Positions 4,017 through 22,903 of a DNA stretch of 26,151 nt are shown here, one piece after another (positions within the stretch are counted from its first letter, which is position 1; every line of letters begins with the position of its first letter). Source of the stretch: a virus. A program made the position numbers and the translations under genes. The stretch is taken from the IMG/VR virus record IMGVR_UViG_3300024515_000041, positions 1 through 26,151 of that record, one strand, 5' to 3'. The notes under the pieces are model-generated. The model was not told the origin of the DNA and did not search any database. It worked only from the letters and a program-made list of their open reading frames with translations.

Positions 4017-6475
4017 TGGGCGTCCCCGGATCTGCCAACTTAATGCTGTTTGGCGGCGCACAGGCGTACGAGATCGACCAGAGCTTGCGGTTCAACTCGG
4101 CGGATTCGGCGTACCTCAATCGGACTCCGGCGAGTGCGGGGAACAGGCGCACCTATACCATTTCAATGTGGGTTAAGCGGGGAAAACTCGGACAAAGTTC
4201 CCGTCTGTTTGGATCTTATACAGGTCCTAATTCTTATTTTGAGGCGTTTTTTACTAGCTCAGACACACTGCAGTGGTATTACTGGAACGGAACAGGATAT
4301 AGTTACAACAGAAACAGCACTCAGGTCTTCCGAGATGCGAGTGCTTGGTATCACCTTGTTTTTGTATTCAATAGCCCCTCCGGGACTGCTTCACAGCGGA
4401 TGCGGATTTATGTAAACAATCAAGAGATAACATCTTTTTCTGCTTCAACGGATCCTAGCTCTAACTTTGATTGTTTATGGAACAGCACCTCTAACAATGT
4501 GATCGGTGATTTGCTTTATGTAGGATCGCCGGGTTACGGCTTCGATGGCTACATGGCGGAGATTCACGCTATCGACGGCTCTGTCCTTGACCCATCATCC
4601 TTCGGTGAAACCGACCCCGACACCGGCGCCTGGATTCCGAAGCGTTACGCAGGATCCTACGGCACCAACGGCTTCTATCTGACGTTCGCGGATAATAGCA
4701 ACACCACAGCCACCACGCTTGGCAAAGATTACAGCGGCAACGGCAACAACTGGACGCCCAATGCCTTCAGCGTCACTGCTGGTGCAGGCAATGATGTCCT
4801 GAGCGACACGCCGACGACGAACTGGTGTACGTTGAATCCGATTATCGCTAATACAGGTTATTTAATTCCAGCAACGAATGGAAATCTAGAGGTTTCTGTT
4901 GCAGCCGGTTCAAACCTTTTTGTAGGTGCCGCTGGGACACAAGCAATTACTGCGGGCAAGTTTTATTGGGAAATCACTCCTACAGCCATCTCCACCTCAG
5001 CAGGAACTTGGATGGAGGTGGGAATTATTCAAACACTGGCCATATACCCAAATGCAACAAGCATAGGCGCCTTTAACGGCGGCTTTGCATATACAAATAA
5101 TGCGTACAAGGCCAGAAGCGGCTCCTATTCCGCTTATGGTGCAACGTGGACAACCAATGATGTTATTGGCGTTGCTCTCGATGCAGACAGCGGATCGATT
5201 ACTTTTTATAAGAATGGTGTTTCGCAGGGTGCAGCTTACACGGATCTCTTAAACTACAACCTGCCTGCTGGATACTATCCTGCTATTGCCATTTATCGAA
5301 ACACAGGGACAACACAATCTGCTGTATTTAACTTCGGCCAACGCGCCTTTGCGTACACCCCACCGACCGGCTACAAGGCACTGAACACCGCCAACCTGCC
5401 CGAGCCGTCGATTAAGAAGCCGAGCAGTTACATGGACGTGGTTGCGTATTCCGGCGCCGCATCAAATCAAAGCATTACGTTGCTCGGGTTTCAACCTGAT
5501 TTTCTGTGGATTAAACGAAGGAACTCCACTAACAGCCACGTCCTTCAAGATGCAGTGCGAGGTGCCGGTAAGACTTTATTTTCCAATGCAACTAATGCTG
5601 AATCCGGCAATACCTCAGATCTTATTTCTTCTTTTGATGCAAACGGTTTTACTGTCAATGACACCTACTTAGGTGGATCGGGCGGCGGGGCAACCAACGC
5701 CAGCGGAGGCACCTACGCCGCATGGTGCTGGGACGCAGGCGGAGCTGGCTCAAGCAACAACGCAGGCACCATCACCAGCACGGTCAGCGCCAACCCCTCC
5801 GCTGGGTTCTCGATTGTTACCTATACGGGGAACGGCACAAATGGCGCAACGGTTGGGCATGATCTAGGTGTTAAACCGGACATGGTAATTATTAAAAAAC
5901 GAGTCAATAATACTGCAACTAATACAGGAACCTGGATCGTACAGCACAAACAAACTACCGCCGGGGTCAATGCTAACGCAAGCACATTTACTTTGACAAG
6001 CTATACAAATGGTGCGTTATATCTCAATCTTACAAATGCATTGTCATCATATGGTTTTGATAATCAAGTAAACGGTAATACCGACACTTTTGTCGCCTAC
6101 TGCTTCTCCGAAGTCGCGGGTTACAGCAAGTTCGGCAGCTACACCGGCAATGGTTCCAGCGATGGTCCGTTTGTGCATACAGGGTTTAAAATTAGGTTCT
6201 TGTTACTTAAGAAGGCAACCACTGGAGTAGCGAACGGGAACTGGTACCTCTTGGATGCAACAAGAAATGAATACAATCCCGTCGATAAGTACATCTTACC
6301 AAACAGTAGTGCCGCTGAAGGAACAACAACCGCTCACATAGATTTCTTGTCTAATGGATTCAAGGTGAGAACCACAAACACTGATTACAACGAATCCGGT
6401 CAGACGTACATCTTCGCCGCCTTTGCCGAAATGAGTTTCGGTGGTCAAAATGTACCCCCTGCAACAGCGCGATGA
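4016..6475 (+). CDS. Modular receptor-binding tail protein with LamG-like and SPRY-like domains
   Basis: 819 residues. Residues ~20-210 resemble a concanavalin-A/LamG fold (RFNSADSAYL, TISMWVKRG, WYHLVFVFNS, IYVNNQEI). Residues ~300-440 resemble a SPRY domain (GKFYWEITP, VIGVALDADSGSITFYKNG). The C-terminal ~350 residues hold about three copies of a repeat with GF-x-PD-x-x-x-IKKR and a closing G-x-TY-x-x-x-FAE pattern. Carbohydrate or receptor binding at the tail end is the likely job. Base composition alternates between AT-rich and GC-rich blocks along the gene, unlike the neighbours, which suggests modular exchange. The stop overlaps the following HNH gene as ATGA. The last residues, PPATAR, recur as PANAR at the end of that HNH protein. 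Confidence 0.82.
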   Translation: MGVPGSANLMLFGGAQAYEIDQSLRFNSADSAYLNRTPASAGNRRTYTISMWVKRGKLGQSSRLFGSYTGPNSYFEAFFTSSDTLQWYYWNGTGYSYNRNSTQVFRDASAWYHLVFVFNSPSGTASQRMRIYVNNQEITSFSASTDPSSNFDCLWNSTSNNVIGDLLYVGSPGYGFDGYMAEIHAIDGSVLDPSSFGETDPDTGAWIPKRYAGSYGTNGFYLTFADNSNTTATTLGKDYSGNGNNWTPNAFSVTAGAGNDVLSDTPTTNWCTLNPIIANTGYLIPATNGNLEVSVAAGSNLFVGAAGTQAITAGKFYWEITPTAISTSAGTWMEVGIIQTLAIYPNATSIGAFNGGFAYTNNAYKARSGSYSAYGATWTTNDVIGVALDADSGSITFYKNGVSQGAAYTDLLNYNLPAGYYPAIAIYRNTGTTQSAVFNFGQRAFAYTPPTGYKALNTANLPEPSIKKPSSYMDVVAYSGAASNQSITLLGFQPDFLWIKRRNSTNSHVLQDAVRGAGKTLFSNATNAESGNTSDLISSFDANGFTVNDTYLGGSGGGATNASGGTYAAWCWDAGGAGSSNNAGTITSTVSANPSAGFSIVTYTGNGTNGATVGHDLGVKPDMVIIKKRVNNTATNTGTWIVQHKQTTAGVNANASTFTLTSYTNGALYLNLTNALSSYGFDNQVNGNTDTFVAYCFSEVAGYSKFGSYTGNGSSDGPFVHTGFKIRFLLLKKATTGVANGNWYLLDATRNEYNPVDKYILPNSSAAEGTTTAHIDFLSNGFKVRTTNTDYNESGQTYIFAAFAEMSFGGQNVPPATAR

Positions 6476-6945
6476 ATTACAAGCACGGACTTAAAAATCA
6501 CCCACTGTATATAACGTGGAAGTCTATGAAGGCACGTTGCTATAACCAGAGTTCTACTAATTACGAACGATACGGTGCCCGAGGTATTACAGTTTGCGAT
6601 GAATGGCGCAATGATTTTGCAGCTTTTTTGCGAGACATGGGAGAAAAACCATCGCCAAAACATTCCCTAGAGCGAAAAAATAATGCTGGTCCTTACTCGC
6701 CTGATAACTGCTGCTGGGCTACAGCATCTGAACAGGTAAAAAATCGAAGAGCTTATGTAATGCCAAACAAGCAAGGCGAAAAACATCCTATGGCGAAATT
6801 ATCCGACGAGGATGCTGAAATGATCAGAGCACTTGGCGGCGTACTTAAAAGACGTGAAATTGCCAAAATGTTCTCAATAAGTGTGACTACGGTTGGCGAC
6901 ATTATTCAAGGCCGTCGCCGTACTCACCCAGCCAACGCCCGCTGA
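6472..6945 (+). CDS. HNH homing-type endonuclease with C-terminal HTH
   Basis: 157 residues of a phage HNH family: HPLYITWKSMKARCYN, YGARGITVCDEW, then the core SLERKNNAGPYSPDNCCWAT. A C-terminal helix-turn-helix follows (AKLSDEDAEMIRALGG, REIAKMFSISVTTVGDIIQG). It probably cleaves DNA at a site related to its insertion point. The start overlaps the upstream tail gene stop (ATGA). The gene is AT-rich compared with the GC-rich blocks around it, suggesting recent acquisition. After the HTH the protein ends RTHPANAR, close to the PPATAR end of the upstream tail protein but with different codons. This may be the displaced original end of that gene. Confidence 0.88.
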   Translation: MNYKHGLKNHPLYITWKSMKARCYNQSSTNYERYGARGITVCDEWRNDFAAFLRDMGEKPSPKHSLERKNNAGPYSPDNCCWATASEQVKNRRAYVMPNKQGEKHPMAKLSDEDAEMIRALGGVLKRREIAKMFSISVTTVGDIIQGRRRTHPANAR

Positions 6946-7969: not shown

Positions 7970-8298
7970 TCGTCCACTCCAGCAAATTTGAAGGCGGCTT
8001 CTCCCTGGAGCAACTGGAAAACGAACGCGGCGAGATCTACTACCGCGCCTGCAAAGACAGCATCTGCCGGTATGCAGAAGACGAATACATCGCCCGCATG
8101 TATCTAGAAGGAATGGGCTGGGATCCTACGCAGCCTGAGCTGGATCAATCCATTCCTCAATCTCAACCTCCAGCCGCTGATCCCAAAAATCCTGCTCCCG
8201 AAACCATTCCCGCCAGTCCCGACTCGCCTTCCGAACATTGCACGACAGACACGCGGGTATCAGATTCCTCGGATTGGTGTGGCCGCCTTTACTTTTAG
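7966..8298 (+). CDS. Hypothetical protein; 3' half antisense to an HNH gene
   Basis: 110 residues. The first ~60 residues (MIVHSSKFEGGFSLEQLENE, then YYRACKDSICRYAEDEYIAR) look like a genuine soluble phage protein and start in an ATGA overlap with the membrane protein upstream. From about residue 54 onward the sequence is Pro/Ser-rich and lies opposite the minus-strand HNH gene ending at 8126. That part may be a readthrough extension created when the HNH gene arrived. I do not recognise a function. Confidence 0.55.
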   Translation: MIVHSSKFEGGFSLEQLENERGEIYYRACKDSICRYAEDEYIARMYLEGMGWDPTQPELDQSIPQSQPPAADPKNPAPETIPASPDSPSEHCTTDTRVSDSSDWCGRLYF

Positions 8299-8446
8299 CC
8301 AGCACATGATCAAGCGTGGCCGACCGCCCCAGATCTGAATTGCAGTAAGCACATCTATTACGCCACCGCCAAATAATCTCTTGTCTAAACCTTAACGTCG
8401 CTTCCTTTTTGTTTAAGTATTCGCCATCCATAATCTGATGGTCCAT
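8126..8446 (-). CDS. HNH endonuclease, antisense in the lysis region
   Basis: 106 residues with a compact classical HNH domain: CAYCNSDLGRSATLDHVLAK, then a zinc-type CLSCN motif, with an aromatic C-terminal tail (DWREWFREQDFWDQ). Two CxxC pairs (CAYC, CLSC) should bind a structural zinc ion. It lies alone on the minus strand between plus-strand genes and overlaps the 3' half of the gene ending at 8298. The start could be the ATG at 8446 or the one at 8431 (MDGEYLNKKEATLRFRQ); the second looks more like relatives I remember. A nuclease is near certain. A homing role is inferred. Confidence 0.85.
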   Translation of the reverse strand: MDHQIMDGEYLNKKEATLRFRQEIIWRWRNRCAYCNSDLGRSATLDHVLAKSKGGHTNPRNLIPACLSCNVRKASRDWREWFREQDFWDQRLEVEIEEWIDPAQAA

Positions 8447-11354: not shown

Positions 11355-11558
11355 CTACCACCGGACATCCCCATCCACATTTTTCCGCCAGGCATTGGAC
11401 TGGGACACCCGCGCACTCCCCCGCTGCTTGGCGCATCCTTTCCTAATTCCCCGCGCCCACTCCAGGAATGCGGCCGCACGCTGCAAATCCGCCGTTTTGG
11501 CCGCACGAATTTCCCGATACAACCACTCCAGCACAATCTCCCTGCCGGTGCGACTCAC
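11355..11558 (-). CDS. Hypothetical protein, 67 residues
   Basis: GTG start at 11558 gives VSRTGREIVLEWLYREIRAA followed by KTADLQRAAAFLEWARG and a basic tail ending DVRW. The GTG overlaps the preceding gene's stop as GTGA, so translation is probably coupled. The frame is open further upstream to 11702, but that segment lies over the 11734-11555 gene and is cysteine-rich and not protein-like. Helical, with no known domain. Confidence 0.6.
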   Translation of the reverse strand: MSRTGREIVLEWLYREIRAAKTADLQRAAAFLEWARGIRKGCAKQRGSARVSQSNAWRKNVDGDVRW

Positions 11559-11734
11559 GAGACTACTGGTGAGACCGCCTCTGTAGTCCGGCGGATACTG
11601 ACGACATGCTGATCCGGGCAAATCCGCAGCGCATATTCCCGCGCCGTGAACGCATCTGGAGCTTCCACAAACAAAGCATGAGTGGCCCCATGACGAGGCC
11701 ACATCGTTACTAGATATTCCGCCAGCTCGATCAC
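11555..11734 (-). CDS. Small protein, 59 residues, coupled to genes on both sides
   Basis: Reads VIELAEYLVTMWPRHGATHA then LFVEAPDAFTAREYALRICP, ending TTEAVSPVVS. The GTG start overlaps the HNH stop as GTGA, and its own stop overlaps the next GTG as GTGA. This double coupling and the protein-like composition are the evidence that the gene is real. Before the HNH insertion it was probably coupled directly to the DNA polymerase gene. The function is unknown. Confidence 0.62.
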   Translation of the reverse strand: MIELAEYLVTMWPRHGATHALFVEAPDAFTAREYALRICPDQHVVSIRRTTEAVSPVVS

Positions 11735-12255
11735 TTGGCTTGGTCCCAGCTCAATCCGACCTTAGCTTCGGCCGAAGGTAAAGACCTATAACTTTTACCG
11801 CGCACTATCTGGCTGATGTGACTTTGATGCGCTCCATAGCTGGTGCCGATACTTTTTTGGGTCTCACCAGCGGCATAGCGAGCTCGAATATCCGATATTT
11901 CAGCAGCGGTGAAACGAGCTTTGTAGTGCGTTAATCCGCCTGGAGAACAGCTCGGCCGCCGGTGTTTTGCGTAAGCATCCAGCATGTTCATGCTGTGTGT
12001 ACTGTCCTTTAGATGACTGGGGCGAACACAGCAAGGGTTATCGCATATGTGCATTACATAAGCCGGCTTAGTACCTGTAGACCACCACAGCAACATGGCG
12101 TGGGCACGTTCGTGTTTTCGCCCGTTACGAAAACGGCCATAGCCATCCCTGTTTGTAGCTCCTTGCCATTCCCAACAGCAAGTTTGCATGTGCTGCTGCT
12201 TAGTACCAGCGCACTGAACTTTCGTCCAAAAGCGGACGCCTATACTCTGATCCAT
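11731..12255 (-). CDS. HNH homing-type endonuclease carrying a polymerase-like C-terminal tail
   Basis: 174 residues. HNH core: CCWEWQGATNRDGYGRFR, ERAHAMLLWW, then MHICDNPCCVRPSHL. A C-terminal helix-turn-helix follows (FTAAEISDIRARYAAGETQK, SHISQIVRGKSY). After the HTH the last 16 residues, LPSAEAKVGLSWDQAK, align with the last 17 residues of the adjacent DNA polymerase, IPPLAEAKVGISWNECK, although mostly different codons are used. The stop overlaps the next gene as GTGA. The simplest reading is that the gene inserted near the 3' end of the polymerase gene and now carries the displaced original end. The nuclease call is firm; the insertion history is inferred. Confidence 0.87.
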   Translation of the reverse strand: MDQSIGVRFWTKVQCAGTKQQHMQTCCWEWQGATNRDGYGRFRNGRKHERAHAMLLWWSTGTKPAYVMHICDNPCCVRPSHLKDSTHSMNMLDAYAKHRRPSCSPGGLTHYKARFTAAEISDIRARYAAGETQKSIGTSYGAHQSHISQIVRGKSYRSLPSAEAKVGLSWDQAK

Positions 12256-12318
12256 CAGCCGGTGATGCGGTTGGTCGGGGGTTGGGCGTTGGAGCGCCGC
12301 AACCCCGCCACTATACCT
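12256..12318 (-). promoter_or_regulatory. Structured leader between DNA polymerase and HNH gene
   Basis: In transcript orientation, 12 bases after the polymerase stop: GGGGTTG, bulged C, GGCG, loop CTCCAA, CGCC, CAACCCC (plus-strand 12278-12306). CGACCAACC follows, and the HNH ATG lies 22 bases after the stem. There is no T tract, so it is not a standard terminator. The same layout occurs at 22351-22417. Confidence 0.65.
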
Positions 12319-14145
12319 TTACTTACACTCATTCCAGCTAATTCCCACTTTTGCCTCAGCTAGCGGAGGTATATCACCTAACCAACGTGCCTCGGCCTGT
12401 TCCATTACGGAAGAAAGGATACCGGCCCATCTTTCGGCGTGATCTTCTCGGACGAGACACACAACTTCGTCATGCACCACGCCGGCCAAGCGCACAATCT
12501 CCTCCCCGTCGGCTCTAAGGAGCGGCCACAGTTTGCCAAGCGTAAGTTTGAGGACGGCGGCACCAGCTCCTTGGATTGGAGTGTTACAGCGCGTGGTGAG
12601 TTTGTTGTTCTCGCCCGGTAGAAACCGCCGCAAGCCCGAGATGCGTATGCGGATAGATGGATTCCCCTTAGCCGCATCAGCAGCGCGAGCATTTTGCTGC
12701 TGCCATTCGGCGATGCCTTTATATGCAGCGTGGAACTTCCTCCGCACCTCCGCCGCCTCATCAAGATCCATCTGGATTCCCATTGTTGCGGCGTAATTCC
12801 TAAGTCCTTTTGCCCCACTCCCGTAAAGAAGTCCGAAGTTGGCCGACTTGCTGACCTGCCGCTGCTCCTTCGTAACCTCATCCTCCGCGACCCCGTAAAT
12901 CTGCGTCGCCGTAATCGTATGAAGGTCTTTCCCCTGCTGGAACACCTCGGTCATTAAGGGATCCTGCGCTTCTGCCGCCGCCAACCTCAACTCCATCTGC
13001 CCATAGTCCGCAACTACCAGTCGCCAACCAGTTGGAGCTTGAACACAAGCCCGGAACCGCACATCCCTGGGAATCTGCTGAAGGTTTGGACTCATGCAAC
13101 TCATGCGCCCCGTATCCGCCCCCATCTGCAGGTAGCTGGCGCGGATAAACCCATCATCCGCCAGATTCTTCAGCAGAGTTTCGGCCATCTGCCGCCGCTT
13201 CTCCACCCGCTTCCACCGCAAGTAGTCAGCCACCACCTTGTGATCGCCGACATACTCTTGGAGCGCAGACCGACTGGCACTCGGCTTCTCGGACTTCATA
13301 TCCATCGGCGCCTTACCCAGCAGCGCCGTGAACTTCTTCAGCAGCTGCACCGGGCTATTGAGATTGAAGACATTGGGATCCGGCTTCTTACCCTTCGCCC
13401 CAGGCTTGGTCTGGTACAGCAGCTTCCCATCAATCCCCCGGCAGAGCTTGTGCTCATCGGGCAGCGCAGCATCAAAATCCTCAATAAATTTCTCACCAAG
13501 TTCTACGTGCTCAATATCCAGGTCCTCGATTACCTTTTCCAAATCCTGCTTGTTAAATGGCAGTCCAGTTCGCCACAACTGCGCCATTGACGGCAGTGCA
13601 TTGCACTCCAGATACCAAGCGTGATAGTGCATACCTTCCGCCATCCGCTGCTCAATCTGCTGGTACAAATCCAGCAACACGAGCACATCAGTGGCCGCAT
13701 ATTCCATCTGACTAAGCGTCAGATCCTGGGACCAATCGCTGCGCTGCTCTTCCTTCGAAATCTCGCGTTTGAGATAGCGCCGCACAACATGTTGTAGGCC
13801 ATGCTTTACATTTACCTGCCCGTTGGTTAGTACACGACTGGCGAGCATGGTGCAGAGCACGCGCCCCTGCGGATACAGCTCGTGCTCCTGCAACCACCCC
13901 AAATCAAACACCGCGTTGTGCGCAACCCAGGTCCGCTCCACCTCGAAGAACTGCTCCAGCTCAATCAGGTTTTCGTCGGACAACTCCCAAAAGTCCAGCA
14001 CCACAGGGTCTTGTCCCGGCGTAGCCAGCTGGAGCAACCGCAATCCCCCGATCTTCGGCTGGAGCCCGGTGGTTTCAACGTCAAACGCCACGAGCTTGGC
14101 ATCGTCCAGGGTGTGGAGATGCTGGATGCCTTGGAGAATTTTCAT
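12319..14145 (-). CDS. polA: Family-A DNA polymerase with 3'-5' exonuclease domain
   Basis: 608 residues. The N-terminal exonuclease domain has VAFDVETTG (Asp22, Glu24), HNAVFDLGWLQ and YAATDVLVLLDLY. The polymerase domain has motif A VVADYGQMELRLAA (Asp380), motif B RQVSKSANFGLLYG (Arg429, Lys433, Phe437, Tyr441) and motif C VVHDEVV (His558, Asp559, Glu560). No 5' nuclease domain is present, as usual in phage enzymes. Phe437 corresponds to E. coli Pol I Phe762. It should copy the phage genome with the upstream primase-helicase. The C terminus SWNECK is followed by a hairpin leader and an HNH gene whose own C terminus mimics it. Complete and confident. Confidence 0.96.
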   Translation of the reverse strand: MKILQGIQHLHTLDDAKLVAFDVETTGLQPKIGGLRLLQLATPGQDPVVLDFWELSDENLIELEQFFEVERTWVAHNAVFDLGWLQEHELYPQGRVLCTMLASRVLTNGQVNVKHGLQHVVRRYLKREISKEEQRSDWSQDLTLSQMEYAATDVLVLLDLYQQIEQRMAEGMHYHAWYLECNALPSMAQLWRTGLPFNKQDLEKVIEDLDIEHVELGEKFIEDFDAALPDEHKLCRGIDGKLLYQTKPGAKGKKPDPNVFNLNSPVQLLKKFTALLGKAPMDMKSEKPSASRSALQEYVGDHKVVADYLRWKRVEKRRQMAETLLKNLADDGFIRASYLQMGADTGRMSCMSPNLQQIPRDVRFRACVQAPTGWRLVVADYGQMELRLAAAEAQDPLMTEVFQQGKDLHTITATQIYGVAEDEVTKEQRQVSKSANFGLLYGSGAKGLRNYAATMGIQMDLDEAAEVRRKFHAAYKGIAEWQQQNARAADAAKGNPSIRIRISGLRRFLPGENNKLTTRCNTPIQGAGAAVLKLTLGKLWPLLRADGEEIVRLAGVVHDEVVCLVREDHAERWAGILSSVMEQAEARWLGDIPPLAEAKVGISWNECK

Positions 14146-16743: not shown

Positions 16744-16976
16744 GCAAAGAAGTTGGGGTCTTGGTGTTTTAGCCGAGTGAGATCGGTGAGTCTTAGTTTG
16801 AGAATCTCGTGGATGGCCAGATTGGCAAGTCTGCTGGAGCAGATCGTGTCGCTGGTGGCAAACACGTATATCAAATGTCTATACAGCTGGGTCAAGGTGC
16901 GAGCCCGGACCCAGTGCGTATCGCCTGGGATGGGCTCGGTCCCGTACTCAAACGTGTCGTAGTCGTCATCATTGCG
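16740..16976 (-). pseudogene. Gene with missing 5' end, apparently split by an HNH gene
   Basis: The frame ending at 16740 is clearly coding: PRNDDDYDTFEYGTEPIPGD, then THWVRARTLTQLYRHLIYVF and a tail ending HQDPNFFA, followed by an ATGA overlap to the next gene. There is no ATG or GTG start in frame before it runs into the HNH gene; only a TTG at 16895 could start a shorter ~50-residue product. A frame to 17117 exists, but it overlies HNH coding sequence. Upstream of the HNH gene a matching fragment, LRNSSDYDDCTVH then stop, can be read. The gene was probably interrupted by the HNH insertion, or it is translated by an unusual route. Confidence 0.5.
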
Positions 16977-17409
16977 CGGATCGCAAAACGTTATAAATCG
17001 TGCGTTGGGTAACGCCGAATTTTTTGGCGAGCTGGCGCTGTGAAACTCCTCCACGGTGGTACTCCGAAACGATTGCTGTTTTGTCCTCCTTAGATAGTTT
17101 GGCCTTGTTGTGGCCATGCACCAAGTTGCTGCAGGCCACGTTGTGTTGAGTAGTACACCATTCCAAGTTGCATACGCGATTGTCCGTTTTTATGTGGTTG
17201 ATGTGGTTTACGACTGCTCCGGTCGGCTCCAGCCATGCTTCAGCTACTGCCCTGTGTACATAAGTGGTTTTTCCCTTACGTCCAGGTTTAAAGGTGTAGT
17301 AGCCCATCTTTGACAGATACGGCTTGAGTACACCTCGCGGACCCTTAATGGAACCTGTGTTTGAGGCGGAGTAACCAGGACAACTAGGGATGGACTTCCA
17401 CTCGTGCAT
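16969..17409 (-). CDS. NUMOD4-HNH homing endonuclease with C-terminal HTH
   Basis: 146 residues. The N-terminal NUMOD4-like segment is EWKSIPSCPGYSASNTGSIK. The HNH core is YVHRAVAEAWLEPTGAVVNH followed by INHIKTDNRVCNLEWCTTQ. The HTH is AKLSKEDKTAIVSEYHRGGV then QLAKKFGVTQRTIYNVL. This is the classical layout of a free-standing homing endonuclease. A 10-base direct repeat, CGACTACGAC, flanks the gene (plus-strand 16956-16965 and 17448-17457). The stop is TGA followed by a second TGA. Confidence 0.87.
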   Translation of the reverse strand: MHEWKSIPSCPGYSASNTGSIKGPRGVLKPYLSKMGYYTFKPGRKGKTTYVHRAVAEAWLEPTGAVVNHINHIKTDNRVCNLEWCTTQHNVACSNLVHGHNKAKLSKEDKTAIVSEYHRGGVSQRQLAKKFGVTQRTIYNVLRSAQ

Positions 17410-18191: not shown

Positions 18192-18545
18192 CTACTCCGG
18201 CACACCAAGAGCAGCTGGCTCGTATTGCGTGAGTACGCAAACGTCAGCCCCCTGCCGCAGAGCAGTCCCAACGATGTAGTGGAACTGCTTCTGGGCGTCG
18301 TCCGACTCCTCGATCTGGTACTCCTCGACCTCGTAGGCCATGCCCTTGCGGTACCAGGAGATCCGCACCACGGCCAACAGCTCGTAGGGGATGTCCCCAA
18401 CCGTGTATCCCAGGGTCGGCTTCCTGGGACGCTTCGGCTGGGGTGGTTCCGGCTTAGCCACGGGATCTCTCCAAAACAGCCACCCGGCAACCCGGAGCAG
18501 CCCTAGGAAAAAGTTAGGCGGGTTGACCACTGGGCGACGGTACAT
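18192..18545 (-). CDS. Hypothetical protein, 117 residues
   Basis: MYRRPVVNPPNFFLGLLRVA with a short hydrophobic stretch (about residues 11-25), a Pro/Lys-rich linker (PEPPQPKRPRKPTLGY) and an alpha/beta C-terminal domain (DIPYELLAVVRISWYRKGMA, HYIVGTALRQGADVCVLT). The ATG lies 32 bases inside the end of the HNH gene upstream. A membrane-anchored or membrane-associated protein is possible. Unknown function. Confidence 0.65.
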   Translation of the reverse strand: MYRRPVVNPPNFFLGLLRVAGWLFWRDPVAKPEPPQPKRPRKPTLGYTVGDIPYELLAVVRISWYRKGMAYEVEEYQIEESDDAQKQFHYIVGTALRQGADVCVLTQYEPAALGVPE

Positions 18546-19077
18546 CGTCCGGCATTATGCGATCAGCTTTTCCGTTATTACATGTTCTACATAAAGTTTG
18601 AAGGTTATGCGACTCATTAGACCCGCCTTTAGATATAGGTAAGATGTGATCGACGTTAAGAATGGCCCCGTCTTTGGCACTTAAACCACAGTAAACGCAT
18701 TTAAATTTATCGCGTACAAATATAGACATACGCAAGGTATTAGGTACGTTTCTTTTATTTACTACGTGAGTGTAATACCTTTTTGCGCATTTAAAACCGT
18801 TAAATTTTACATTCTCTCTGATATTTACGTCGTTAAATTTTAAAATCTCCTTTACGGCATACATGGCACAAGCTATGTCCGATGCCCCTAGAGGATTTTG
18901 TACTTTACAGCTAACTGTTACTACAACAAAGATGTGACCAAGTATATCTGCGGTGCTATTGAACTCATCTATATCCAGAACAATAGCGGTGTCTTTTGAA
19001 CACTTAAGTTTTAAGTTTGGTGCTAAGTACCAGCTCCCCCAGTTGTCCGGGGACTGTTCGAAAGGCAGTTGTGCCAT
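18514..19077 (-). CDS. HNH endonuclease with a long AT-rich N-terminal domain
   Basis: 187 residues. The C-terminal third is a classical HNH: FKCVYCGLSAKDGAILNVDH, ILPISKGGSNESHNLQ, TLCRTCNNGKADR, with two CxxC pairs for zinc. The first ~115 residues (VVVTVSCKVQNPLGASDIAC, NVKFNGFKCAKRYYTHVV) form a domain I do not recognise. The region ~18560-18990 is markedly more AT-rich than all its neighbours, a sign of transfer from another source. It sits between the primase gene and the 18545 gene and overlaps the latter by 32 bases. A structured gap precedes its start. Confidence 0.83.
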   Translation of the reverse strand: MAQLPFEQSPDNWGSWYLAPNLKLKCSKDTAIVLDIDEFNSTADILGHIFVVVTVSCKVQNPLGASDIACAMYAVKEILKFNDVNIRENVKFNGFKCAKRYYTHVVNKRNVPNTLRMSIFVRDKFKCVYCGLSAKDGAILNVDHILPISKGGSNESHNLQTLCRTCNNGKADRIMPDDVPSPSGQPA

Positions 19078-21702: not shown

Positions 21703-21730
21703 TTGTCAAGGCGTGTTAGTGTTTTACACG
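21703..21730 (+). promoter_or_regulatory. Candidate promoter for the ssDNA-binding operon
   Basis: TTGTCA (21703-21708), 16 bases, then TACACG (21725-21730), about 40 bases before ATG 21769 and just after a terminator. The same bases read TTGACA on the minus strand, so the site may also serve the divergent primase gene, although no good minus-strand -10 is visible. Confidence 0.4.
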
Positions 21731-21768
21731 TTGCCCCCAGGGCGACCACACCAGACACCTACACGACC

Positions 21769-22350
21769 ATGGGTTTCCTTTCAAAGCAAGCATCAGCAAC
21801 CGTTTCCAGCTCCGGCACCGGCGGCGGCTACCTCCAAGTTTCCAAGCTCGCCGATGGTGGCTCCGTCCGCTTCGCCCTTCTCAGTGACGAGCCTCTGGAG
21901 TTCTACGAGTTGTGGGCTTCTGACGGTGCGTCGTCAAAACCGTTTCGCTTTCTGCACGAGCCCACTATTGAGGACATCAACGCAGAATTAGGCGACTATG
22001 AAGCCCGCGAAGGCCGAGGCGGTCCTGGCACTGTTGACATCAAATTTGCCATAGCTGTTCCCGTTTATTCGTATGACAGCGGTCGGGTACAAGTGCTGTC
22101 TCTGACCCAGAAGTCCATCCTCAAAGAGCTGGATCAAATCAGTCAAATGGAGGACTACGAAGACTTGCTGGCGTGGGACTTCAGCCTCAGCAAGAAGGGC
22201 TCGGGTCTTACGACTGAGTATCAACTCCGCCCTGTTCCTCGTAAAAAGGGAGTCCAGGAACACATTGATGCGGCTTGGCTGGAGGCAAAGGCTGAAGGTT
22301 TCGACATCAAGCGTTTGATCGACGGAGCCAACCCTTTCAAGCCTGCTTAA
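21769..22350 (+). CDS. Putative single-stranded DNA-binding protein
   Basis: 193 residues from ATG 21769; the longer frame from 21703 runs over the promoter and is rejected. It begins MGFLSKQASATVSSSGTGGG and has a beta-rich core (SVRFALLSDEPLEFYELWAS, DIKFAIAVPVYSYDSGRVQV), then LSLTQKSILKELDQISQ and an ending DGANPFKPA. I recall this family next to polymerase and exonuclease genes in cyanophages, where it is taken as an OB-fold ssDNA-binding protein. The identification is from memory and position beside an exonuclease; no catalytic motif is present. Confidence 0.55.
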   Translation: MGFLSKQASATVSSSGTGGGYLQVSKLADGGSVRFALLSDEPLEFYELWASDGASSKPFRFLHEPTIEDINAELGDYEAREGRGGPGTVDIKFAIAVPVYSYDSGRVQVLSLTQKSILKELDQISQMEDYEDLLAWDFSLSKKGSGLTTEYQLRPVPRKKGVQEHIDAAWLEAKAEGFDIKRLIDGANPFKPA

Positions 22351-22417
22351 GCCGGTAAGATTGTGGGGCAGCGGTGCTTGCAACACCCTGCCCCCGACCA
22401 CCTACCCGAAATAGGCG
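22351..22417 (+). promoter_or_regulatory. Structured leader between ssDNA-binding gene and HNH gene
   Basis: Fourteen bases after the stop: GGGGCAG (22365-22371), bulged C, GGTG, loop CTTGCAA, CACC, CTGCCCC (22388-22394). CGACCACCTACC follows and the HNH ATG lies 23 bases after the stem. Same architecture as 12256-12318, with different stem sequences. Confidence 0.65.
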
Positions 22418-22903
22418 ATGGCGAAAGCATACAAGCCCTTACCAGCTGCGGAAGAGCTGTGGGAGCTGTTTGAATACAGGCCGCTTACAGGGCAACTGGT
22501 GCGCCGTATTCGTGGGGGGCGTGTCATGCCGGGCACCTGCTTTGGGGCAGTAGGTCCTAAGGGCTACCGACACGGGTCCATAGATCGCACTCGTTACTAC
22601 GCGCACCGACTGGTGTATGTCTGGGTTACAGGTAACGATCCCGGGCAACTCGACATTGACCACATCGATTCCGACAGAGACAACAACTGTTTTTGGAACT
22701 TGCGAACTTGCACACGCACGCAAAACAACTTCAATCGCCTGGCACAGGGTTACGTCGAAGTGGACGGCAGGTACTACGCCCGCATCTGCACCGGAAACAG
22801 GCAGGTACGTGCCCTCGGGGGTTACAGCACAAAAGCTGAGGCATACGAGGCCTACAAAAAAGCCGCTCTGGAGTTGCACGGGGAATTTTCTCGTGTAAAT
22901 TAA
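22418..22903 (+). CDS. HNH-AP2 homing endonuclease
   Basis: 161 residues. The HNH core is YYAHRLVYVWVTGNDPGQLD, then IDHIDSDRDNNCFWNLRTCT. A C-terminal AP2-like DNA-binding domain follows (GYVEVDGRYYARICTGNRQV, YSTKAEAYEAYKKAALELHG). This HNH-AP2 arrangement is typical of mobile phage endonucleases. It lies between the ssDNA-binding and exonuclease genes, with the structured leader before it and a 20-base gap after. Unlike the HNH genes after the polymerase and receptor-binding genes, its C terminus looks like a normal AP2 end and not like the upstream protein's tail. Confidence 0.9.
   Translation: MAKAYKPLPAAEELWELFEYRPLTGQLVRRIRGGRVMPGTCFGAVGPKGYRHGSIDRTRYYAHRLVYVWVTGNDPGQLDIDHIDSDRDNNCFWNLRTCTRTQNNFNRLAQGYVEVDGRYYARICTGNRQVRALGGYSTKAEAYEAYKKAALELHGEFSRVN

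Follow-up and report, generated by a model that had tools for sequence, protein, structure and literature searches.

The window, a 26,151-nucleotide stretch of viral DNA from IMG/VR, carries a family A DNA polymerase gene on the minus strand (14145-12319; PF00476 and PF01612) and, directly behind it on the same strand, an HNH endonuclease gene. The resident part of the polymerase (12466-14145, minus strand) comprises the 3'-5' exonuclease and polymerase regions through the HDE of motif C, and it matched PF00476 (E = 1e-66) and PF01612 in the profile search. The 48 codons beyond motif C (12322-12465, minus strand) are borne by a cassette and belong to a divergent allele of the HDEV.CLV type, which is also present in other cassettes of the A and B types described below. 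The TAA stop of the polymerase, a 63-nt structured leader and the HNH start codon occupy positions 12253-12321 (minus strand). The HNH open reading frame (12255-11731, minus strand) is composed of a core of about 160 residues (11776-12255), with an HNH_3-like His-Me finger and a C-terminal helix-turn-helix (HTH), and of a retained native polymerase 3' end, AEAKVGLSWDQAK followed by TGA (11731-11772), to which the core is fused in frame. The next gene of the operon (11555-11734, minus strand) begins with GTG and overlaps the HNH stop as GTGA (11731-11734), as a sequence-only reading of this DNA had noted.

The polymerase ends in PLAEAKVGISWNECK and the HNH open reading frame in PSAEAKVGLSWDQAK. 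Ten of these 15 residues are identical, and six of the ten use different codons. In the AEAKVG.SW...K core, nine residues are identical and five of them are encoded differently, which confirms the starting observation of the earlier reading, namely that the HNH tail resembles the polymerase C terminus written in other codons. The polymerase/HNH junction recurs in two IMG/VR contigs from other metagenomes (L002 and L003) and is therefore no assembly error. All relatives and alleles compared in this study were metagenomic contigs; peptide patterns retrieved no polymerase relative from species genomes, and no cultured phage was similar at the DNA level.

The profiles identified an HNH-type catalytic domain in the window protein. 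It matched PHROG 59 (E = 5e-21), 826 and 1872 with E-values of 1e-17 to 1e-21, and PF13392 with an E-value of 1e-4, below the curated cut-off. Residues H52, H69, C71, N73, C76 and H81 were conserved in seven HNH homologues. The dN/dS value of about 0.1 for L061 versus L089 indicated purifying selection. Distant homologues matched to about residue 160 only. Among 80 HNH homologue loci, including one that matches L061 and stops at its contig edge (L224), the polymerase-tail motif occurred at polymerase-slot loci only; HNH homologues with the same tail away from a polymerase gene, which would have spoken against the sequence-only reading, were not found in this set. The search of solved structures gave no HNH match, only a weak HTH match. 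The AlphaFold model (mean pLDDT 49) was useful for the HTH only, and the tail was predicted with very low confidence.

For the polymerase, 80 relatives were taken from IMG/VR. Three of these, L004, L005 and L006, are near-identical to the window and lack the HNH gene, so the gene is present or absent at one site with conserved flanks. Their polymerase, ending in PLAEAKVGLSWDQAK-TGA, runs straight into the next gene through a GTGA overlap; the SWDQAK end and the overlap that had been predicted for uninterrupted relatives were both seen. In an alignment with L004, the window differs at 2 positions over the 1,718 nt that end with the GA of the final HDE codon of motif C. Beyond motif C, the nucleotide identity fell to about 62% through the stop, with 31 of 48 residues identical. 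Homology picked up again at GCCGAAGC / GCCGAAGCTAAGG. About 105 nt of the native polymerase gene are missing from the window, and 693 nt of other sequence (window 12465-11773) take their place. This cassette carries a divergent polymerase 3' end that runs from motif C to a stop of its own, then the leader, then the HNH gene; of the native gene, the final 13 codons survive behind it as the HNH tail. Because the tail and the downstream DNA match L004 with a single mismatch in about 505 nt after the HNH core, the likeness is far beyond chance, which identifies the HNH tail as native polymerase sequence that was retained.

Motif C, which lies some 140 nt before the stop inside a block conserved at the nucleotide level (GTGCGCTTGGCCGGCGTGGTGCATGACGA), marks the left border of the cassette. 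Insertion into the last polymerase codons, as first proposed, does not agree with this position. The proposal that the element came with a gene end of its own held; this end is an old divergent allele and not the native end with merely re-spelled codons. The divergence had been noticed in the last 15 codons, which do differ, but it runs through the whole 48-codon stretch beyond motif C.

Pattern searches with the spacer, the polymerase and the HNH protein yielded additional occupied slots. We found at least eleven distinct interrupted alleles, with three endonuclease types, on scattered polymerase backgrounds. A-type HNH genes with the native tail were present in the window, L061, L089, L090 and L094; L084 matches L061 but runs off the contig edge. 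The native 3' fragment was absent from the A-type alleles L192 (the same contig as L230), L229 and the distant L231, from the B-type alleles L028 and L091, and from the C-type alleles L175/L178, L176 and L177/L179, which are AP2-like by resemblance. L177 kept just a few bases of the native polymerase end. In most occupied alleles, the next gene starts within the HNH stop or end, through GTGA, ATGA or TAATG, or through a longer overlap in the B type; L176 and L177 have no overlap. The fusion had been explained as a means to keep operon coupling. The fused piece is indeed the native end, but the tail-less B-type, C-type and L192 alleles, together with L176 and L177, show that the fusion, though useful for the operon arrangement, is not essential. 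Thus, the observation behind the sequence-only reading was confirmed, and its interpretation was supported in part.

L100 and L101 carry a cassette-type segment (HDEVLCLV...SSTMEEAEARWLGEIPPLAEAK) joined to the native tail, without an endonuclease. Their polymerase bodies are 98-99% identical to the empty L108. These alleles are likely the footprint of a lost endonuclease. They could arise by recombination between the two tails, which would remove the HNH gene, or by partial conversion. Behind a distant polymerase, L231 (2431-2992) contains a 51% identical HNH gene with a divergent leader (51.8 bits) and without a native tail, which suggests an old association of the A-type HNH with the polymerase slot.

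The occupied state changed eight times on the tree of polymerase bodies, on which a single occupied clade was rejected (AU p = 6e-68), and twice on a tree built from the sequence beyond motif C. With 118 nt in this segment, the cassette clade was weakly supported (44-86), and a sister relationship of the window and L004 was not rejected on the segment alone (p = 0.475). In our judgment, the replacement argument is carried by the direct comparison of the window with L004 (99.9% and then 62% identity) rather than by the segment tree. L089 and L090 agree at 95-98% in their cassettes and mostly at 73-91% in the polymerase bodies. Phage trees based on the polymerase can be broken at motif C.

Candidate resistance differences were located at both ends of the brought-in polymerase segment. 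The residues after motif C were of the IILLV type in nearly all empty alleles and V.CLV in the A- and B-type cassettes and L176. In the 48 non-redundant empty alleles, ATC ATC (once ATC CTC) follows motif C, and the GCT and GTC codons of the A-K-V-G tail are invariant. Both the codons following motif C and the A-K-V-G tail codons were changed in the cassette copies compared; the retained tail has GCTAAGGTCGG in the window, L061, L089 and L090. This pattern is compatible with a target at any point from motif C to the tail; the cut may fall at either border, motif C or the tail junction, or in the interval. A perfect motif-C dichotomy acting as a resistance code was rejected, as it is broken by L100/L101, by the occupied alleles L175, L177 and L179 (ILLV-type motif C) and L192 (CVLLV), and by the L127 group, which is empty, yet has VILLV. 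The sequences of L175, L177, L179 and L192 mean that resistance cannot depend on one fixed sequence. Synonymous diversity at AKV (GCTAAGGTC) was zero in the 48 empty alleles, except for one K/N change. This is not decisive as a target-site signature, because the diversity is equally low over a longer stretch, codons 481-500 (0.03 versus a mean of 0.39 in the same alleles). The low-diversity stretch as a whole covers codons of about 475-505 of the window polymerase (roughly 12630-12725, minus strand); it may reflect an overlapping constraint or repeated conversion.

The leader of the window contains a -10-like TATAGT, a first hairpin formed by GGGGTTGCGGCG and CGCCCAACCCC, and a second hairpin adjoining the start codon. 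In seven alleles, the distance from the polymerase stop to the ATG is exactly 63 nt (69-column alignment with stop and start codons), with a mean column identity of 95% across this spacer, while the HNH proteins encoded by these alleles share only 34-74% identity with that of the window. The fold comprises two hairpins, one long and one short, in 24 leaders taken from the polymerase slot, the ssb slot and a third slot; the short one pairs with the AGG/CGG beside the start codon, and 97.5% of the cells were paired. The covariation score was 0.331 as compared to 0.149 in shuffles, none of the 500 shuffles scored as high, and slid controls were near zero. A covariance model detected both leader copies of the window, with 83.8 bits in the polymerase slot and 87.8 bits in the ssb slot. 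It also detected divergent copies ending at the ATG before HNH, tyrosine integrase-like and MTxxDY genes. The idea of a polymerase-specific element was rejected, as the leader also occurs after ssb and other genes. Probably, the cassettes make use of a 5' element that is general to this phage group. The analysis yields a covarying leader RNA for which Rfam gave no match. A sigma-70 promoter scan found no promoter in the leader, and the -10-like box is suggestive only as a promoter element.

On the basis of these results, we propose that the locus is a phage homing cassette, which would replace the 3' end of its target gene and supply a cleavage-resistant end (estimated probability about 0.8). 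We favor this reading because empty-site relatives match both flanks of a sharply bounded block, and because the HNH gene is scattered on the body tree and changes only twice on the segment tree. The L089 and L090 cassettes being more alike than the bodies that carry them, and the different motif-C context of empty alleles and of the A/B cassettes and L176, argue in the same direction. Further support comes from L100 and L101, which look as expected after HNH loss, from the three endonuclease types occupying one slot, from the purifying selection on HNH, and from the agreement of the logic with the demonstrated WHO elements (PMC7282813).

In the proposed mechanism, the HNH enzyme would cut or nick empty polymerase alleles between motif C and the AKVG tail, and the break would be repaired from a cassette allele. 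The conserved motif-C block and the duplicated native tail would serve as the left and right arms, respectively, of this repair. Homing would then restore a working polymerase with an end no longer recognized by the enzyme. The divergence of the two tail copies would limit self-cutting and excision. The leader, with its promoter-like -10 and hairpins, would drive or time the expression of the endonuclease, and the retained tail would preserve the stop/start overlap with the next gene. The HNH tail appears to be better explained as the right-hand homology arm than by operon coupling. It is also fairly probable, though less so than homing itself, that the locus represents a phage class of target-end-replacing cassettes. 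In this class, a cleavage-resistant polymerase end starting at motif C, a conserved promoter/hairpin leader and one of three interchangeable endonuclease types would travel together, and the empty footprints would reflect a cycle of gain and loss.

Ordinary allelic recombination could have exchanged the polymerase C terminus and the HNH block by chance, the endonuclease being a passenger without homing. Phages recombine freely, and the nucleotide-conserved block at the left border is a natural crossover point. We regard this explanation as unlikely, since the block with its endonuclease recurs on scattered backgrounds, with eight state changes and always in the same place, three endonuclease types occupy the slot, and the HNH gene is under purifying selection. 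That the tail is a functional endonuclease domain, its polymerase likeness being accidental, is considerably less likely still. Five distinct A-type alleles keep it as an uninterrupted in-frame extension, but outside homologues and L192, L229, L230 and L231 stop at about residues 159-165 without it. Furthermore, the DNA of the window tail hardly differs from the native polymerase end found in its clade, the tails of other alleles resemble their local clades, and the tail has very low confidence in the structure model, which is poor overall.

HNH genes often reside within introns of phage polymerase genes (I-HmuI, I-PfoP3I; PMC3428280), and a group I intron or another spliced element with the HNH tail as its 3' exon would give a mature polymerase ending in SWDQAK. 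Such an element is hardly credible here. A group I or group II intron was rejected, as Rfam returned no intron match at E-values up to 10 between 11000 and 13000 and none at the gathering threshold in the whole window, and the conserved group I core was not found. Moreover, the polymerase reading frame is complete with its own end, a 3' 'exon' is lacking in cassettes of the B and C types, and the leader likewise follows the stop codons of ssb and other genes. Hairpin-stimulated stop-codon readthrough or bypass would join the polymerase and HNH proteins, which are in the same frame and separated by a fixed 63-nt spacer with a strong hairpin after the stop. The L094 spacer has a second in-frame stop (CTCTAACGC), the C-type cassettes have other frames and stops, and the leader also precedes genes that do not lie behind the polymerase; these findings leave this explanation a negligible weight.

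The proposed homing cassette was compared with known systems. WHO elements of Torulaspora and Lachancea yeasts (Coughlan et al. 2020, PMC7282813) home into FBA1 and swap in a resistant 3' end, with the duplicated 3' fragment as the second homology arm. Similarly, the window has a free endonuclease gene behind the target gene and a native 3' fragment downstream, and diverged endonucleases occur at one locus. In contrast, WHO endonucleases are intein-like with a zinc finger and act on a nuclear aldolase gene, whereas an HNH/His-Me enzyme follows a phage polymerase here; this enzyme carries the leftover end as an in-frame extension that shares the gene overlap, and its cleavage of the target is a prediction. 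The protein matched HNH profiles and an HTH only; it would work like a WHO element and is no member of that family. The target gene is a hybrid of a native 5' part and an element-supplied divergent 3' end, as in WHO elements and mitochondrial mORFs. In excerpts of PMC3630166, mORFs, which are mobile ORFs of fungal mitochondria with duplicated C termini (Allomyces atp6; Glomus atp6, atp9, cox2 and nad3), bring a foreign C terminus. That functional segment is in phase, and the native segment behind the endonuclease is near-identical to empty relatives, as in our case. These excerpts concern LAGLIDADG or GIY-YIG enzymes in mitochondrial genes, and describe neither a shared structured leader nor an in-frame native-end fusion. 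By its anatomy, the cassette matches the WHO/mORF route and belongs to neither family.

According to the parts of PMC2988022 consulted, T4-like free-standing endonucleases (MobE, SegG) are HNH or GIY-YIG genes adjoining an essential gene, with co-conversion of the flanks. Hairpins and late promoters control T4 homing endonucleases in a way similar to that proposed for the leader. RNA hairpins and start/stop overlaps, which the cassette shares by anatomy, control expression. A second target end or a fused native end is not described in those parts. More generally, the portions of the phage literature consulted describe co-conversion and allele-based resistance in an architecture different from that of the cassette. 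I-HmuI, I-BasI and I-PfoP3I (PMC3428280) are also HNH enzymes tied to phage DNA polymerase genes, but they need group I intron splicing, and there is no intron here. We found no earlier phage case of target-end replacement in the open-access papers searched. The data suggest that phages, too, have the unusual kind of homing known from WHO elements of yeasts and mORFs of fungi, where a resistant target end is supplied by the element and no splicing takes place, and that it acts here on the catalytic core of a replicative polymerase; phage alleles of all stages are at hand: empty, occupied by three endonuclease types, and emptied with a footprint.

The second leader-family copy of the window (22348-22420, plus strand) shows compensatory base changes and follows an ssb-like gene (21703-22350). 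It precedes an HNH gene of a different type (22418-22903, plus strand; PF13392 E = 3e-11, PHROG 99) with an AP2-type C terminus by resemblance. The covarying leader was also seen upstream of HNH genes after the ssb-like gene in L180-L199, L204 and L209. At the ssb end (window 22330-22350, L181-L219), most HNH-bearing alleles have NPFKPA, and the HNH-free alleles seen have NPFKAA or NPFKAG. The ssb slot is possibly a second, smaller gene-end replacement. Related leaders precede an integrase-like gene in L205 and MTxxDY genes in L206, L207 and L210. In an apparently unrelated phage, a weak match to the leader model (22 bits, core GCGGCGCTAGAACGCC) was located before an HNH gene (L239, 2431-2507). 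The window contains four further HNH-type genes, at 6472-6945 (plus strand) and at 8126-8446, 16969-17409 and 18514-19077 (minus strand).
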